The notes under the pieces: generated by a model
Told to the model about the DNA's origin: nothing
Seen by the model: only the letters and a program-made list of their open reading frames with translations
Database searches by the model: none
Shown: positions 20,464 to 61,679 of the stretch, in pieces
How positions within the stretch are numbered: position 1 is the stretch's first letter
How the letters are laid out: every line of letters begins with the position of its first letter
Source of the DNA: Aquificota bacterium
GTDB taxonomy: Bacteria; Aquificota; Aquificia; Aquificales; Aquificaceae
Length of the DNA: 64,000 nt
Direction of reading: 5' to 3'
NCBI GenBank assembly: GCA_018771605.1
Contig: CP076324.1
Coordinates: 1,240,001 to 1,304,000 of the forward strand
Translations under genes and position numbers: made by a program

Positions 20464-20487
20464 ATATAATCTTTATCTCATGAGAAT
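20464..20487. repeat. Left target-site duplication, IS copy 1 (24 bp)
   Basis: 24 nt identical to 21454-21477, immediately outside the left terminal inverted repeat. The repeat begins ATATAATC and ends TGAGAAT. Confidence 0.9.
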
Positions 20488-20544
20488 ACGCCGAGTGAGA
20501 AATTCCCTTTAAGCTAAACCTTCCATATCAATAAAAAGACAGCA

Positions 20545-20587
20545 GGGCTACTATAATAGTAGCTCTAAAAACCATCGGAGGTTTTTA
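20545..20587 (+). promoter_or_regulatory. Transposase leader: palindromic -10 and RBS-masking hairpin
   Basis: Inverted repeat around CTACTATAATAGTAG (20545-20565) contains TATAAT at 20552-20557. Next, AAAAACC (20567-20573) pairs perfectly with GGTTTTT (20580-20586) around the loop ATCGGA, so the ribosome binding site CGGAGG is partly buried. The ATG is at 20590. The AAAAACC/GGTTTTT hairpin is preserved in all three IS copies. Confidence 0.65.
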
Positions 20588-20589
20588 CC

Positions 20590-21438
20590 ATGGAAATTAT
20601 ACCACCTTACCTACGCATCTACCAACAAATCCTAAAAGACCTTGAAAATGCCTTGCCATTCCTTAATGTGCCAAAAGCTAAAGCAGGCAGAAAGCCTAAA
20701 CTCACAGACATCCATATAGCAGCCATCTTTATACTCTCCTACATAACCAATACAAAAGTCCTCACCTTAGCTAAACTACTTATTGACCCATCCATACAAT
20801 CATGGCATATCTTCAGAAGATACAGACTCAAGAGAGTATACAGGATATTGAGAGAATACAAGCTTCACAAGCTGAGGCTTATGATTTTAGCAAGGCTTTT
20901 GTATGGTAAGAAGATAGAACTTGTAATAGATGGAACCATAGTGGACATAGCCAATGTAAACAGGGCGAGGACACAGAAGATAAGGAGGGTAAGAGGGAAG
21001 GTATGGTGGGCAAAGAGGAGAAGGAAGATAGTTCGGAGAGACAATGGGAAGGTAGTGGAGTTTGAGGAGGTCAGGTATGGCATGTTGATGATGGTGTTAT
21101 GTGATAGGTGGGGAAGAGTTTATGATGTGTGGATAAGCTTTGGAAGCGTGCATGAAGTTAGGGCATTCAGAGAGAGAAAGAAAAGGAGTTTATGGTTTAG
21201 GGAGCTTGTGGAGAATTGTGTGGTGTATGGTGATAGGGGTTATAGGGGCTGTGAAGGTGTGATTGTGTGTGATGGTAGGGAGATGAGGGCAAAAAGGCAG
21301 GTGGTGGAAGGTGTTATAAGTCAGATAAAGCTTTTCAATGCTGGTAGTGGGTGGAGGACTTTAACTTGTGTGCTTGTGTATGTATATGCTTATGCTATTG
21401 GATATAGCTATTATAGGAGGGGTGAACTTGAGGTCTAA
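20590..21438 (+). CDS. DDE transposase (IS copy 1)
   Basis: 282 residues. A helical, basic N-terminal region with KAGRKPKLTDIHIAAIFILSY is followed by a DDE catalytic core: Asp in ELVIDGTIVD, Asp in VVYGDRGYRG and Glu in KRQVVEGVISQIKLFN. YGMLMMVLCDRWGRVYDVWISFGSVHEVRAF is the central beta sheet. The layout resembles IS5/IS982-type DDE transposases, but the long target duplication does not fit either, so I leave the family open. The reading frame is intact. Identical to copy 3 over the first ~174 residues; differences cluster after that. Confidence 0.9.
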   Translation: MEIIPPYLRIYQQILKDLENALPFLNVPKAKAGRKPKLTDIHIAAIFILSYITNTKVLTLAKLLIDPSIQSWHIFRRYRLKRVYRILREYKLHKLRLMILARLLYGKKIELVIDGTIVDIANVNRARTQKIRRVRGKVWWAKRRRKIVRRDNGKVVEFEEVRYGMLMMVLCDRWGRVYDVWISFGSVHEVRAFRERKKRSLWFRELVENCVVYGDRGYRGCEGVIVCDGREMRAKRQVVEGVISQIKLFNAGSGWRTLTCVLVYVYAYAIGYSYYRRGELEV

Positions 21439-21453
21439 TTTCTCACCCGGCGT

Positions 21454-21477
21454 ATATAATCTTTATCTCATGAGAAT
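21454..21477. repeat. Right target-site duplication, IS copy 1 (24 bp)
   Basis: Exact 24-nt copy of 20464-20487, directly after the right terminal repeat. Confidence 0.9.
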
Positions 21478-38898: not shown

Positions 38899-38997
38899 AG
38901 TAATATTTTACACCAAACACACTTAATAAAAGCTTACTGAACATTTAGCAAGCTAAATTATAAGGATAAGCCAAAGATGAGAACTCATTAACCTACA

Positions 38998-39018
38998 TTT
39001 TCAAAATTATTTGAAGCA
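38998..39018. repeat. Left target duplication of MITE A
   Basis: 21 nt (TTTTCAAAA...TTTGAAGCA) identical to 39221-39241. The full duplication is about 23 nt, with one base added in a T run and one end mismatch. Confidence 0.75.
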
Positions 39019-39019
39019 C

Positions 39020-39218
39020 ACGTTGGGTGAGAAATTAATTAAGCAAAGGTGATGCCATTATGCCTTTTGTTAAAAATAAATGAGACAAAAAATGTAGTGG
39101 CACAGCATGCCGTGCTATTACTGATAAAAAAATCTACTGGTCTTTGACCCGCCTGATGTTTTATAATCTGGCAGGTTTAAAACCTGCCACTACAAAAGAC
39201 GAATTTCTCACCCGGCGT
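39020..39218. mobile_element. MITE copy A, 199 bp
   Basis: Ends ACGTTGGGTGAGAAATT and AATTTCTCACCCGGCGT are the same terminal inverted repeats as the 966-bp IS, with two changes on the left. No coding capacity. The interior holds the palindromes GGCAGGTTTAAAACCTGCC and CAGCATGCCGTG-like hairpin arms. Reverse-complementing the element at 61482-61679 gives a close match along its whole length. It is flanked by a direct repeat. It lies in the 491-nt gap 38899-39389. Confidence 0.88.
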
Positions 39219-39220
39219 AT

Positions 39221-39241
39221 TTTTCAAAATTATTTGAAGCA
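39221..39241. repeat. Right target duplication of MITE A
   Basis: Exact 21-nt match to 38998-39018. Between here and the next promoter (39242-39343) I see no gene; short MITE-like words (GTGCCATTA, TTTTGCTAAAAA) suggest older debris. Confidence 0.75.
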
Positions 39242-39343
39242 TTAAAGATAATGTGGAGGTATGATAAGGCGTGCCATTAAAAATCAAAATAACGGCGCAG
39301 TATATCATGCCCTTACAGAGTGTGGGCAATCTGCGTATAGCTT

Positions 39344-42559: not shown

Positions 42560-42632
42560 ACCGAGCGAGAAGTTAATTAAGCAACTGAGATGCCATTATA
42601 AATTTTTGCTAAAAATAAATGAGACAAGTGAG
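42560..42632. repeat. Truncated MITE remnant downstream of position 42560
   Basis: Starts ACCGAGCGAGAAGTTAATTA, matching the MITE left end, then GATGCCATTATA and TTTTGCTAAAAATAAATGAG, matching the interior. The right half is gone or unrecognisable. It fills most of the gap between uvrB and the glycosyltransferase at 42669. Confidence 0.65.
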
Positions 42633-45446: not shown

Positions 45447-46494
45447 GCTACTGCAAGTGGTGGACGGTGTAGGTTGGGGCGGCACAAAGGAGCAGACCTA
45501 CCTCATAACAAGGGAGCTATCCAAAAGGGGCTTTAGGGTTCATATGGCCCTCTCCTTCCAGTATGACCTTATGGTAAGCAAGTTAAAGGGTTATGATGTA
45601 AAGCTTCATTTTTTTGAGAACCATAATAAACTCTCAAGGTTTCACCCTTTTAACTACTACAGGCTTTGGAAGATAATGAGAGAGGAGAACTTTGACATAG
45701 TGATAGCCAATTTTCCACATGCCCTTGATTTTGTAAGGACTGCCATGAGTTTTCTTAAAACTAAGCCAAAGCTTGTGGCCTACAAAAGGACTGGAAGAGG
45801 GTCCAACTTTTTTTCCAAGCTTTTCAAGTATTCTTTTGCGGATAGGATAGTGGTGGTTGATAGGGCAACCTTTGAAAGGTTAAAAGAAGATGGCTTTTTT
45901 CCAGAGAAGCTGGTTTATATACCAAGCGGTCTTGACCTTAGTAGGTTCAAGCCTATGGGTAAGGAGATGGCTTTGGCAAAGAGAAGGGAGCTTGGTATAG
46001 ACCCAAACAAAAAGGTCTTTATAAACGTGGCTAACTGGAACCCACAACATAAGGGCCAGCCTTTTCTTATAGAAGCCTTTCGTAGGCTAAACTGCCCGCA
46101 GTGCCTTCTCCTTCTGGTAGGCATAAATACAGACAAAGAAGCGCCCAAGTATGCCCAAAGGTACGGCCTTGGTGAAAGGCTTATAGGCCTTGGCTTTAGA
46201 GAGGATGTGCCAGAACTCCTCAACATGGCGGATTACTTTGTCTTTTCCTCCTACTTTGAGGGTATTGCTGGAGCCCTACTTCAAGCTATGGCTTGCGGTA
46301 AGGTGGTCATATCCACTCTTGCGGGTGGTATAAGGGATTACTTGAAGGATGGAGAAAATGGCTTTGCGGTAGATGTGGGAGACCTTGAGGGCTTTGTGGA
46401 TAGGTTAAAAAGGGCCCTTGACCTTTCGGAGGAGGAAAGGGAAAGACTTTCAAAGAGAGCCATAGAGAGCTTAAAATTCCATAGTCATACATAG
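45439..46494 (+). CDS. Glycosyltransferase family 4, 3' end displaced by IS607 element
   Basis: 351 residues from the ATG at 45439. LLQVVDGVGWGGTKEQTYLITRELSKRGF begins the GT-B fold; INVANWNPQHKGQPFLIEAF and YFVFSSYFEGIAGALLQAMACGKVVISTLAGGIRDYL hold the phosphate loop and the E(x7)E motif. The frame ends at TAG 46492-46494 just inside the IS607-type element. The lost tail is found at 49575-49628 in the matching frame. Only about 17 residues are lost, so the enzyme may remain active. Confidence 0.82.
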   Translation: MVKLLQVVDGVGWGGTKEQTYLITRELSKRGFRVHMALSFQYDLMVSKLKGYDVKLHFFENHNKLSRFHPFNYYRLWKIMREENFDIVIANFPHALDFVRTAMSFLKTKPKLVAYKRTGRGSNFFSKLFKYSFADRIVVVDRATFERLKEDGFFPEKLVYIPSGLDLSRFKPMGKEMALAKRRELGIDPNKKVFINVANWNPQHKGQPFLIEAFRRLNCPQCLLLLVGINTDKEAPKYAQRYGLGERLIGLGFREDVPELLNMADYFVFSSYFEGIAGALLQAMACGKVVISTLAGGIRDYLKDGENGFAVDVGDLEGFVDRLKRALDLSEEERERLSKRAIESLKFHSHT

Positions 46495-46509
46495 ACACTT
46501 GACAATAAA

Positions 46510-46537
46510 GTGTTAAAAGATAATAATAATATCCGAT
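46510..46537. repeat. Left target duplication, IS copy 2 (28 bp)
   Basis: 28 nt, from GTGTTAAAAG to ATATCCGAT, identical to 47504-47531. Confidence 0.93.
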
Positions 46538-47503
46538 ACGCCGGGTGAGAAATTAGGCCTCAAGTTCACCCCTCCTGTAATAGCTATATCCAATAGCATA
46601 AGCATATGTATAAACAAGCACACAAGTTAAAGTCCTCCACCCACTACCAGCATTGAAAAGTTTTATCTGACTTATAACACCCTCCACCACCTGCCTTTTT
46701 GCCCTCATCTCCCTACTATCACACACAATAACACCTTCACAGCCCCTATAACCCCTATCACCATACACCACACAATTCTCCACAAGCCCCCTAAACCATA
46801 AACTCCTTTTCTTTCTCTCTCTGAATGCCCTAACTTCATGCACGCTTCCAAAAGTTATCCACACATCATAAACTCTCCCCTCCCTATCACATAACACCAT
46901 CATCAACATACCATATCTTACCTCCTCAAACTCCACCACCTTTCCATTGTCTCTCCGAACTATCTTCCTTCTCCTCTTTGCCCACCATACCTTCCCTCTT
47001 ACCCTCCTTATCTTCTGTGTCCTCGCCCTGTTTACATTGGCTATGTCCACTATGGTTCCATCTATTACAAGTTCTATCTTCTTACCATACAAAAGCCTTG
47101 CTAAAATCATAAGCCTCAGCTTGTGAAGCTTGTATTCTCTCAATATCCTGTATACTCTCTTGAGTCTGTATCTTCTGAAGATATGCCATGATTGTATGGA
47201 TGGGTCAATAAGTAGTTTAGCTAAGGTGAGGACTTTTGTGTTGGTTATGTAGGAGAGTATAAAGATGGCTGCTATATGGATGTCTGTGAGTTTAGGCTTT
47301 CTGCCTGCTTTTGGTTTTGGCACATTAAGGAATGGAAAGGCATTTTCAAGGTCTTTGAGGATTTGTTGGTAGATGTGTAGGTAAGGTGGTATAATTTCCA
47401 TGGTAAAAACCTCCGATGGTTTTTAGGGCTACTATTATAGTAGCCCTGCTGTCTTTTTATTGATATGGAAGGTTTAGCTTAAAGGGAATTTCTCACCCAG
47501 CGT
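46538..47503 (-). mobile_element. 966-bp insertion sequence, copy 2
   Basis: Same length and ends as copy 1 (ACGCCGGGTGAGAAATT to AATTTCTCACCCAGCGT). Flanked by an exact 28-bp direct repeat. Inserted at the start of the IS607 tnpA gene: the right repeat carries the first two bases of its ATG. Confidence 0.95.
46553..47401 (-). CDS. DDE transposase (IS copy 2)
   Basis: 282 residues, intact frame, same DDE residues as copy 1 (VIDGT, YGDRGYRG, VVEGVISQ). It differs from copy 1 at nine positions, three of them within the first 30 residues (for example YLHIYQ, NAFPF, PKPKAG). Leader hairpin AAAAACC/GGTTTTT is retained ahead of the ATG. Confidence 0.9.
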   Translation of the reverse strand: MEIIPPYLHIYQQILKDLENAFPFLNVPKPKAGRKPKLTDIHIAAIFILSYITNTKVLTLAKLLIDPSIQSWHIFRRYRLKRVYRILREYKLHKLRLMILARLLYGKKIELVIDGTIVDIANVNRARTQKIRRVRGKVWWAKRRRKIVRRDNGKVVEFEEVRYGMLMMVLCDREGRVYDVWITFGSVHEVRAFRERKKRSLWFRGLVENCVVYGDRGYRGCEGVIVCDSREMRAKRQVVEGVISQIKLFNAGSGWRTLTCVLVYTYAYAIGYSYYRRGELEA

Positions 47504-47531
47504 GTGTTAAAAGATAATAATAATATCCGAT
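47504..47531. repeat. Right target duplication, IS copy 2 (28 bp)
   Basis: Exact copy of 46510-46537. It recreates the TAATAAT-type -10 region directly ahead of tnpA. Confidence 0.93.
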
Positions 47532-48165
47532 GAACGAGGAACTACTAAGTCCAAAAGAAGCGGGGAAGCTCTTAGGAGTTTCAACAAGAACAATACAAAG
47601 GTGGGACAAGCAGGGACTTATCAAGACAGTTAGAACTCCAAAAGGGCGAAGAAGGATACCTGTGTCAGAAGTAAGGAGAATTCTAAGACAGATGACGAAT
47701 GACAGGAGAGCGGTTATCTATGCAAGAGTTAGCTCCCAGAAACAGGACAAGGATGGAAACCTTGAAAGACAGGTGGAGAGATTACTTAAATGGGTTAAGG
47801 AGAATAACTATGAAGTAGTTAGAGTTTTCAAGGATACCGCAAGCGGAATAAATGATAAACGCAAGAACTTCTGGAAGATGATGGAGTTTATCAAAGAAAA
47901 CCACATACCTTTCCTAATAGTTGAGTTTCACGACAGACTCACAAGGTTCGGGCTTGAATATGTGAAAGCGCTTCTGAAAGAATACGGAGCGGAGCTTATC
48001 ACGGTAGAGAGTAAAATGAGCAAAGATAAAATGCATGAGCTTGTGGAAGACCTGATAACTATTATTACTTCCTTTACCGCAAGGATATACGGAGTGAGGT
48101 CTCAGAAATTCAAGAAGATAAAGGAGATACTTGAGGATGAAGCTACACAAAACGCTACTGCTTAA
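47530..48165 (+). CDS. tnpA: IS607-type serine recombinase TnpA
   Basis: 211 residues. A MerR-like helix-turn-helix (LLSPKEAGKLLGVSTRTIQRWDKQGLIKTVRTPKGRRRIPVSEV) is followed by a serine recombinase catalytic domain: VIYARVSSQKQDKDGNLERQ holds the nucleophilic Ser, and FHDRLTRFGLEYV the conserved Arg residues. This domain order is specific to IS607. The end overlaps tnpB by 29 nt. The ATG is only two bases from the IS copy 2 duplication boundary. Confidence 0.93.
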   Translation: MNEELLSPKEAGKLLGVSTRTIQRWDKQGLIKTVRTPKGRRRIPVSEVRRILRQMTNDRRAVIYARVSSQKQDKDGNLERQVERLLKWVKENNYEVVRVFKDTASGINDKRKNFWKMMEFIKENHIPFLIVEFHDRLTRFGLEYVKALLKEYGAELITVESKMSKDKMHELVEDLITIITSFTARIYGVRSQKFKKIKEILEDEATQNATA

Positions 48166-49566
48166 GATTGTAGAACCTAACGAAGGGAAGAGGAAGAAGT
48201 TAGAAAACACGATAGAGCTTTACGCAAAGGTTCTGAAGTTCTACCTTGGAGTTATCCCAAAGCTCGGAATGTATCGCATAGCAAGTATGGACAGCAAATC
48301 TGCTCTTACCTTCCTTGAGTTTAATACAGTTCCCACGAAAACCCATCCCAATCCTCTCTACCCTATCTTTGGAGGAGTTCAGACCAACATAAGAAGGAGT
48401 GCAATAAACAAAGCGGTTGGGATGATAAAGAGTTACCTCTCCAACCTTTTGAGATGGCACAGGGAAGGGAAAGAGCTTGAGCATTCAAAACCCTCTTATC
48501 CCAACCCCAAGAACTTCTCCTTTACCTACTACGCTACAGATGTAGAGTTTGAGGATGTTCTCTCCGCTAAGGAGTTCGCTTTTGTGAAACTCAAGGTAAT
48601 AGACGAGAAGGGAAACTACGAGTTTGTAAACTACCCTATCCTGCCTTACAGGAGGTTTTACGAGAAACTCAGCGAACTTAAAAGTGAAGGGTGGAAACTG
48701 AAGAGAAGTGCAACCCTGATAAAGAAAGGAAAAAGCTTTTACGTGGCTCTTACCCTTGAGAAGGTAGTAAAGAAGGTAAAGCAAGAGAGACCAAAGTATG
48801 TGATAAATGTGGACCTGAATATTCAAAGAAACCTGGCGTGTATAGGTATATTTGAGATAGATTGGGAAAAGAGAGAAAGCAGGCTTTACGGGATAAAGTT
48901 CATAAAAAGAGAGCTAACAAAACTTGCTTACAAAAGGGACTATTTGCTTGAGGAGATAAGGTTAAGACAAGTTCTCACAGGGCGAAGTCCTGAAAGGGGG
49001 ATAACAGAAAGCTGTGGAGGAAGATTTACAATCTCAACAGGGATATTGCTCTGAAGGTGGCAAAAGAAATAGACGAAGTGGCAAAATACTTTAAGGAGAA
49101 AGGAGAGGTAGTAGTGGTATTTGAGAAGCTAAAAGGACTAAGAGGAAAGAGAGGGAAGGGTAAGAGATTAAACAGGAAGCTTTCTTACTGGATGAGGAAA
49201 AGTGTTCAGGAAAGGGTTGAGTATTTAGCCTTTGAGAACGGTTATGGGATAGATTTTGTGTATCCACACTACACTTCAAAGAGGTGCTGTGTATGTGGGT
49301 TGTTGGGAGAGAGGTTCTCTCCCAATGGCTCAAAAGCCCTCTTTGGGTGTAGTAGATGCGGATACGAGGTAAATGCAGATGTGAACGCTGTGTTTAACCA
49401 GCACTTTGTTTACCTGTCCCATCTCCTACATGGAGGTGGGGAAGCCCGCTCAGTGGTGCGGGTTGGGGTTTCGCTGAAAGGTCTCCGAAAGAGGAGACAC
49501 AATCTAAGCGGAGCCTCTACGAGCAATGGCTACCTTTGCCTACGTAATGTGTATGTTTTAAGGTAG
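48137..49566 (+). pseudogene. tnpB: TnpB (RNA-guided nuclease), frameshifted
   Basis: Two adjoining frames (48137-49054 and 49057-49566) together give a full TnpB. The first holds the N-terminal WED-like region and the first RuvC Asp (VINVDLNIQRNLA). The second has RuvC Glu (VVVFEKLKGL), a zinc ribbon (CCVCG..GCSRCG) and the last Asp (NADVNAVFNQ). The break lies in the G5 run at 48996-49000; adding one G gives GDNRKLWRKIYNLNRDIALKVAKEID, the expected TnpB continuation. Catalytic residues are otherwise intact. Programmed slippage or sequence error are possible alternatives to inactivation. Confidence 0.85.
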
Positions 49567-51134: not shown

Positions 51135-52100
51135 ACGCCGGGTGAGAAATTAGACCTCAAGTTCACCCCTCCTATAATAGCTATATCCAATAGCATAAGC
51201 ATATACATACACAAACACACAAGTTAAAGTCCTCCACCCACTACCAGCATTAAAAAGCTTTATCTGACTTATAACACCTTCCACTACCTGCCTTTTTGCC
51301 CTCATCTCCCTACTACCACACACAATCACACCTTCACAACCCCTATAACCCCTATCTCCATACACCACACAACTCTCCACAAGCTTCCTAAACCATAAAC
51401 TCCTTCTCTTCCTTTCCCTAAATGCCCTAACCTCATGCACACTTCCAAAGCTTATCCACACATCATAAACTCTCCCCTCCCTATCACATAACACCATCAT
51501 CAACATACCATATCTTACCTCCTCAAACTCCACTACCTTCCCATTGTCTCTCCGAACTATCTTCCTTCTCCTCTTTGCCCACCATACCTTCCCTCTTACC
51601 CTCCTTATCTTCTGTGTCCTCGCCCTGTTTACATTGGCTATGTCCACTATGGTTCCATCTATTACAAGTTCTATCTTCTTACCATACAAAAGCCTTGCTA
51701 AAATCATAAGCCTCAGCTTGTGAAGCTTGTATTCTCTCAATATCCTGTATACTCTCTTGAGTCTGTATCTTCTGAAGATATGCCATGATTGTATGGATGG
51801 GTCAATAAGTAGTTTAGCTAAGGTGAGGACTTTTGTATTGGTTATGTAGGAGAGTATAAAGATGGCTGCTATATGGATGTCTGTGAGTTTAGGCTTTCTG
51901 CCTGCTTTAGCTTTTGGCACATTAAGGAATGGCAAGGCATTTTCAAGGTCTTTTAGGATTTGTTGGTAGATGCGTAGGTAAGGTGGTATAATTTCCATGG
52001 TAAAAACCTCCGATGGTTTTTAGAGCTACTATTATAGTAGCCCTGCTGTCTTTTTATTGATATGGAAGGTTTAGCTTAAAGGGAATTTCTCACTCGGCGT
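51135..52100 (-). mobile_element. 966-bp insertion sequence, copy 3
   Basis: Length and ends as in copies 1 and 2 (ACGCCGGGTGAGAAATT; AATTTCTCACTCGGCGT). Unlike them it lacks a matching direct repeat: the 28 nt on the left and right do not correspond. It lies between the divergent genes at 51110 (minus) and 52119 (plus). Confidence 0.93.
51150..51998 (-). CDS. DDE transposase (IS copy 3)
   Basis: 282 residues, intact. Identical to copy 1 through about residue 174, with seven changes after it (for example CDREGR, ERKRRS, RKLVESC, CGSRE). DDE motifs and leader hairpin are conserved. Confidence 0.9.
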   Translation of the reverse strand: MEIIPPYLRIYQQILKDLENALPFLNVPKAKAGRKPKLTDIHIAAIFILSYITNTKVLTLAKLLIDPSIQSWHIFRRYRLKRVYRILREYKLHKLRLMILARLLYGKKIELVIDGTIVDIANVNRARTQKIRRVRGKVWWAKRRRKIVRRDNGKVVEFEEVRYGMLMMVLCDREGRVYDVWISFGSVHEVRAFRERKRRSLWFRKLVESCVVYGDRGYRGCEGVIVCGSREMRAKRQVVEGVISQIKLFNAGSGWRTLTCVFVYVYAYAIGYSYYRRGELEV

Positions 52101-61481: not shown

Positions 61482-61679
61482 ACGCCGGATGAGAAATTCA
61501 TCCTTTGTAGGGACAGGTTTTAAACCTGCCAGATTATAAAACATCAAGCGAATCCAAAACCGGTAGATTTTTTATTAGTAGTGGCACGGCATGCCGTGCA
61601 ACTACATTTCTTGTCTCATTTATTTTTAACAAAAGGCATAATGGCATCACCGTTGCTTAATTTATTTCTCACTCGGCGT
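61482..61679. mobile_element. MITE copy B, 198 bp
   Basis: Ends ACGCCGGATGAGAAATT and ATTTCTCACTCGGCGT correspond to the 966-bp IS ends. In reverse complement it aligns with MITE A along its full length. A nearly perfect 28-nt palindrome (61578-61605, centre GGCATGCC) lies in the middle. No target duplication: left flank (…CTATAC) and right flank (ATTGTTTT…) differ. It fills most of the 249-nt gap before birA. Confidence 0.85.

Follow-up and report, generated by a model that had tools for sequence, protein, structure and literature searches.

A 966-bp IS in the genome of a heat-loving Aquificota bacterium is very probably an active, or recently active, autonomous element, the ∼200-bp elements that carry its ends are very probably its MITEs, and both leave long duplications, apparently at promoter-like targets. 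The genome is 1,722,082 bases (1.72 Mb) in size; the whole stretch of DNA that was analysed, called the window below, is 64,000 nucleotides long and covers bases 1240001-1304000. New here are the family-wide long duplications, the IS982 control, the C^RT...AY^G boundary with its TATAAT enrichment, and a candidate 20.4-kb composite with a 27-bp duplication; our literature search found no paper on these elements. Earlier reports of long, variable IS target duplications offer no mechanistic model for them (PMC2266710). The new family is compact and present in dozens of copies, its boundary motif is clear, and an IS982 control is available within a single genome (G097), which makes the duplication question testable by assay and structure. 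The analysis also ties the dispersed short repeats of Aquificota genomes to a likely transposase, and it suggests how a gene-dense genome could absorb insertions at promoters.

The IS and the MITEs share their ends

All genome-wide copy counts were taken from sequence searches. The 966-bp IS is present in 21 uninterrupted full-length copies of 96-99% identity, three of them in the window (Table 1); one further copy is interrupted near its right end (genome 383386-386081), and there is one partial copy. The MITE family of this genome contains about 20 near-complete copies and a tail of fragments, with identities of 73-94%. An earlier sequence-only reading had located two MITEs, one inverted relative to the other, and the ends that it gave for MITE A and MITE B are exactly those in Table 1. 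It had also described them as sharing both ends of the IS and nothing of its interior, which our comparison bore out: about 17 terminal bases are common to IS and MITE at both ends, and the interiors share nothing. The MITE interiors contain no transposase gene, the longest Met-ORF being 31-37 aa (31 aa in MITE A). The halves of MITE A and MITE B align at 86-88%, and MITE A is predicted to fold as a single long hairpin (RNA fold z = -6.5). When the genome was searched for the shared ends, a check that the same reading had proposed, the terminal 17-mer (≤3 mismatches) gave 109 matches, compared to 2 for the reversed control pattern. Its central proposal, a non-autonomous family tied to its likely transposase, is well supported, the link being one of sequence similarity.

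Table 1. Features of the IS and MITE families in the window (window coordinates)
Feature	Position	Strand	Details
IS copy 1	20488..21453	+	966 bp; exact 24-bp duplication at 20464-20487 and 21454-21477
Transposase gene, IS copy 1	20590..21438	+	282 aa; DDE-type, D114-D215-E240 by alignment
MITE A target duplication, left copy	38997..39019	.	23 bp, ATTTTCAAAATTATTTGAAGCAC
MITE A	39020..39218	+	199 bp; ends ACGTTGGGTGAGAAATT / reverse complement of right end ACGCCGGGTGAGAAATT
MITE A target duplication, right copy	39219..39242	.	24 bp, ATTTTTCAAAATTATTTGAAGCAT
Truncated MITE remnant	42567..42627	+	just 5' of uvrB-like gene start (match L050)
IS copy 2	46538..47503	-	exact 28-bp duplication at 46510-46537 and 47504-47531
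Transposase gene, IS copy 2	46553..47401	-	
IS copy 3	51135..52100	-	no duplication
Transposase gene, IS copy 3	51150..51998	-	
MITE B	61482..61679	-	198 bp, inverted relative to MITE A

MITE B is located between the starts of a glnE-like (-) and a birA-like (+) gene, which are not neighbours in related genomes. In 60 other genomes of the family, MITE A matched only element ends of 26-27 bp, so within the searched set it is restricted to this genome. We looked in 13 same-genus genomes for empty sites of both MITEs; since the flanking genes are not adjacent there, synteny yields no empty site.

The interior of the MITEs (39093-39196 in MITE A, and other copies) contains the palindromes GGCAGGTTTAAAACCTGCC and GCACGGCATGCCGTGC, bounded by TGTAGTGGCA... 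and ...TGCCACTACA, and these resemble a nested repeat of smaller size. Within the MITEs the motif AAAATAAATGAGAC does not vary; it also occurs elsewhere in the genome, partly beside IS or MITE ends.

Long target duplications

To call duplications, we fixed the ends of each copy by the terminal repeat and then compared its left and right flanks. In this genome 22 duplications were obtained, the interrupted IS and one composite included; they are 18-38 bp in length, with a median of 26. Exact repeats of 23-38 bp flank 13 IS copies, and one more IS copy has 26 bp with 4 mismatches. Six MITEs have repeats: exact ones of 18, 23 and 29 bp, the 23/24 bp of MITE A, 27 bp (2 mismatches) and 22 bp (3 mismatches). 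The true flank pairs scored 23-38 for the 13 IS copies and 18-29 for five MITEs; among 1482 mismatched left/right pairs, which served as a flank-swap null, the score was at most 7, except for two pairs that are real swaps. No repeat was found around 7 of the 22 IS copies and most MITEs, many of them older copies. At some right junctions (L004, L034), extra or changed bases resembled donor-derived bases; most other cases are best read as point changes.

MITE A had been credited with a direct repeat of 21 bp exact and about 23 bp in full, and the measured repeat agrees: the core TTTTCAAAATTATTTGAAGCA matches at 21/21 positions (38998-39018 vs 39221-39241), and the duplication extends to the element ends as 23/24 bp, where the two copies differ by a T-run indel and a single substitution. 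That its size would be the same as for the IS holds only in part. Both elements belong to the same long class (MITE 18-29 bp, IS 23-38 bp), but the length is variable (18-38 bp), and the flanks of MITE B, when compared, have no direct repeat. The sequence-only reading had made its case depend on flanking repeats in other copies as well; these are present in five more MITEs and most IS copies, though many older MITEs are without them.

Boundary and content of the duplications

The duplications of this genome are bounded by the pattern C^RT...AY^G. On the left, 16/22 have C as the outer base; on the right, 18/22 have G (34/44 combined). The duplication opens with AT or GT in 19/22 and closes with AT or AC in 19/22. 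Across all 66 flanks, T occupies position 2 in 60. The pattern is its own reverse complement, so both strand-transfer points look alike, each being 5'-C^RT. The relatives' duplications are AT...AT bounded, with A/T rather than C/G as outer bases.

The AT content of the duplications is 79% in this genome and ranges over 79-89% across the sets. TATAAT, on either strand, is present in 10 of the 22 duplications, whereas 4.3 are expected by dinucleotide shuffling (p=0.006), and in 6 of the 8 relatives' duplications, against 2.6 expected in the same way (p=0.011); the enrichment is moderate. Exact TATAAT in the 66 outward flanks is found mainly at a distance of 6-15 bp from the junction, and ATG mainly at 21-30 bp. 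The host itself often places a -10 box near the start codon: TATAAT occurs in the 30 bp upstream of the start in 10 of 38 window genes. Several duplications end inside a start codon, and among start-codon-like duplication ends 10/24 open an ORF of at least 60 aa, compared to 34/178 intergenic ATGs (Fisher p=0.016); when the C^AT/AT^G rule is taken into account, this coincidence is weak, and it is suggestive only. As judged from their sequences, the insertion sites of the IS and the MITEs are AT-rich, lie mostly at gene edges and often carry a TATAAT that would be a -10 box. We also considered a hybrid promoter, in which the -35-like TTCTCA of the terminal repeat would act with the -10 of the target, and rejected it because the -10 position (6-15 bp from the junction) is too spread.

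Two IS copies of the window adjoin gene starts. The IS copy 2 duplication ends on the right with the AT of the start codon (ATG) of an IS607-type resolvase gene (47530), and IS copy 3, which is without duplication, retains a -10-like/ATG arrangement in each flank (gene starts 51110 on the - strand and 52119 on the + strand).

The IS607-type element itself (47530-49566), with IS copy 2 of the 966-bp IS located at its resolvase start codon, consists of the resolvase gene (NF033518, E 1.1e-59) followed by a TnpB-like gene that is split into two ORFs in different frames. A segment of 66 identical bases, in inverted orientation, is found at window 46472-46537 and genome 428699-428764; it adjoins IS copy 2 and another IS copy ∼0.86 Mb away, with the same junction base.

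Exchange between copies, tandems and a 20.4-kb segment

In the seven full IS copies without repeat, the left and the right flank tend to look like halves of two different targets, which exchange between copies would produce. Such exchange was demonstrated for one pair only: a 27-bp repeat at the left of the copy that begins at 160009 recurs to the right of the copy that ends at 180442. These two copies (L126, L127) are in the same orientation and delimit a 20.4-kb segment (genome 160009-180442) with the 27-bp repeat outside it; inside are 18.5 kb with murA-, sulfate/sulfite-assimilation- and NiFe-hydrogenase-like genes, the names being read from translations. The segment interrupts a hyfE-like (hydrogenase-type) gene: when the outer flanks are joined with one 27-bp repeat, an open hyfE-like frame results, as read by eye. 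It represents a composite transposon or, alternatively, an IS insertion that recombination enlarged at a later time. At genome 383153-386081 a MITE and an IS are arranged one after the other in the same target, with a repeat common to both elements, and a second such tandem is located at 1600515-1601710.

Relatives in other genomes

Of 136 Aquificota genomes, 34 carry the transposase; in the named collection its relatives belong to Aquificaceae and other Aquificota. A motif scan of an 84,980-species collection returned Aquificota, one Omnitrophota and one Aenigmatarchaeota MAG contig; the latter two contigs are short and may be misbinned. No relatives were found in the viral contigs or the plasmids searched. 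Where the transposase is 47-50% identical, the relatives make duplications of 24-33 bp and carry termini such as ACCTTGAGTGAGAAATT. G099 carries an independent MITE-like family of ∼160-200 bp, with ends like those of its own IS; three of its members have 31-32-bp flanking repeats with 3-4 mismatches. In G048, a MITE-like family with ends of the same kind measures 287 bp and shows a 23-bp flanking repeat with 2 mismatches. These two cases indicate that the IS-MITE pairing arose more than once. Going by the relatives and the MITEs of the two other genomes, the long duplication is a family-wide trait.

The whole genome of G099 gave 163 terminal-repeat matches (≤2 mismatches) and only four transposase matches; it is rich in MITE-like copies and has few source genes. 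In G097, a genome of another family of the same order, a partial transposase (G097:C1:1003413-1003967, L089) is 98% identical to that of the window, which suggests recent horizontal transfer.

Proposed mechanism and alternatives

In the reading that we prefer, the MITEs would keep the ∼17-bp ends recognised by the transposase, carry unrelated filler and be mobilised by the enzyme in trans. Each element end would be joined to a C^RT step on opposite target strands, usually 23-28 bp apart, with the strand-transfer points about 2.5 helical turns from each other; host repair of the two long gaps would then create the repeat. The -10 box and the initial bases of the start codon are often included in the repeat, so that the gene beside the insertion keeps both, and their retention may protect the expression of that gene. 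Copies without repeat could be due to homologous recombination between copies, or to age. A more specific proposal, which we advance tentatively and consider unlikely, is that integration of the two ends is almost independent and takes place at C^RT steps across a stretch of melted promoter DNA, namely the -10 region, perhaps in an RNA-polymerase open complex; the cassette from -10 to start codon would be duplicated, and the neighbour would keep its -10 box and start. As a guess, interaction with melted promoter DNA would fit the -10 enrichment.

The target rule could also be AT-rich intergenic DNA and nothing else, with promoters and start codons hit because they are located there. This is a real possibility, although we lean against it. 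The duplications are certainly AT-rich, the start-codon excess is modest, and the window is 93% coding, so its spacers are short; however, in two independent sets TATAAT is commoner than in dinucleotide shuffles, it clusters at a limited distance from the junction, and the preference for C/G as outer bases is far from an AT-rich background. That the long repeats were present before insertion, or are products of recombination and not target duplications at all, is very improbable. A few copies do have swapped flanks, but each repeat is unique to its own insertion and abuts both ends, the joined flanks of the composite give an open frame, and the same size class recurs in unrelated genomes.

A further alternative concerns the transposase that moved the MITEs. 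If it was an ancestral or lost relative of the IS, the present IS would share ends with them by descent only; we regard this as rather unlikely. The MITEs are mostly more diverged than the IS copies and many have lost the repeat, and the end sequence is almost unchanged in relatives at 47-50% identity. Since the MITEs are on the whole the more diverged, an ancestor of the IS may have moved many of them. On the other hand, the perfect repeats of some MITEs (29, 23 and 18 bp) indicate that some insertions are recent, and the MITE ends are closer to those of this IS (ACGCCGGGTGAGAAATT) than to those of the relatives (ACCTTGAGTGAGAAATT). The sequence-only reading had named a transposase with better-matching ends as a challenge to its view; in a genome search limited to this transposase family, the only genes found belong to this IS.

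Comparison with known IS families and MITEs

The MITEs share the traits of bacterial MITEs in general, which are <500 bp, have terminal inverted repeats, insert in AT-rich intergenic DNA, give hairpin-forming transcripts and have direct repeats when young (PMC10969869); those described here differ in the length of the repeat and in its promoter-like content. They share termini with the 966-bp IS without its gene, and they fall in its duplication class.

Several IS families resemble the new one in their duplications. IS1549 and IS1634 of the IS1634 family also make long duplications of variable length (8-514 bp); by description, however, the IS1634 transposases are among the largest of the groups in that account, whereas that of the new IS is small, its length spread is narrow (mostly 23-28 bp) and its boundary carries a motif. 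In the IS1202 family, the IS1202 group has duplications of 16-28 bp; the elements studied are ∼1.5 kb in size and encode TnsB-like transposases of 441-457 aa, and no target was found for the long-duplication group (PMC10132070). The duplications are alike, but the new IS is only 966 bp, with a 282-aa transposase. The IS1182 family also has variable duplications, of 2-60 bp (PMC7335449); its model was matched by one of nine members of the new family, with E = 0.087.

Pfam gave nothing convincing for the window transposase, although 5/9 members of the family matched DDE_Tnp_1. The IS982 model of NCBIfam, NF033520, was matched by all nine aligned members (best E 9.8e-13), but the window transposase scored 28.5 bits, far under the 130-bit cut-off, and a six-frame search of this genome with the model gave no match at E ≤ 1e-10. 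When profiles were compared, genuine IS982 proteins of the same phylum aligned over 219 columns, which covers most of the transposase, with an hhalign probability of 95.8% and 18% identity; the catalytic D, D and E are in register, and D114, D215 and E240 correspond by alignment to the RNase H-like DDE triad of IS982. The predicted fold gave weak RNase H-transposase matches, the best being to Mos1 (E 0.019), and a Foldseek search against the PDB found nothing below E = 0.001.

The IS982 family is tabulated with lengths of 845-1282 bp, TnpA of 208-326 aa, direct repeats of 2-10 bp and ends of 5'-AC(N)6T(N)5TT (PMC7335449). The new IS lies within this range for the lengths of both element and transposase. 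Its ends have the 5'-AC and T9, but the TT is one base further in (positions 16-17). Its 18-38-bp duplications are outside the range. Both families are present in G097, where the repeats of genuine IS982 copies (957-958 bp, ends ACCCTAATTTCC) measure 5, 9, 10, 13 and 15 bp, and those of new-family copies 24, 26 and 33 bp. This contrast within one genome indicates that the long duplication goes with the transposase, not with the host. Some IS982 repeats of G097 exceed the tabulated 2-10 bp, so the new group extends a tendency and does not break fully with IS982. Going by these comparisons, the transposase group would be best filed as a new IS982-like group whose nearest known relatives, the IS982 elements, apparently do not make such long, variable duplications (18-38 bp).
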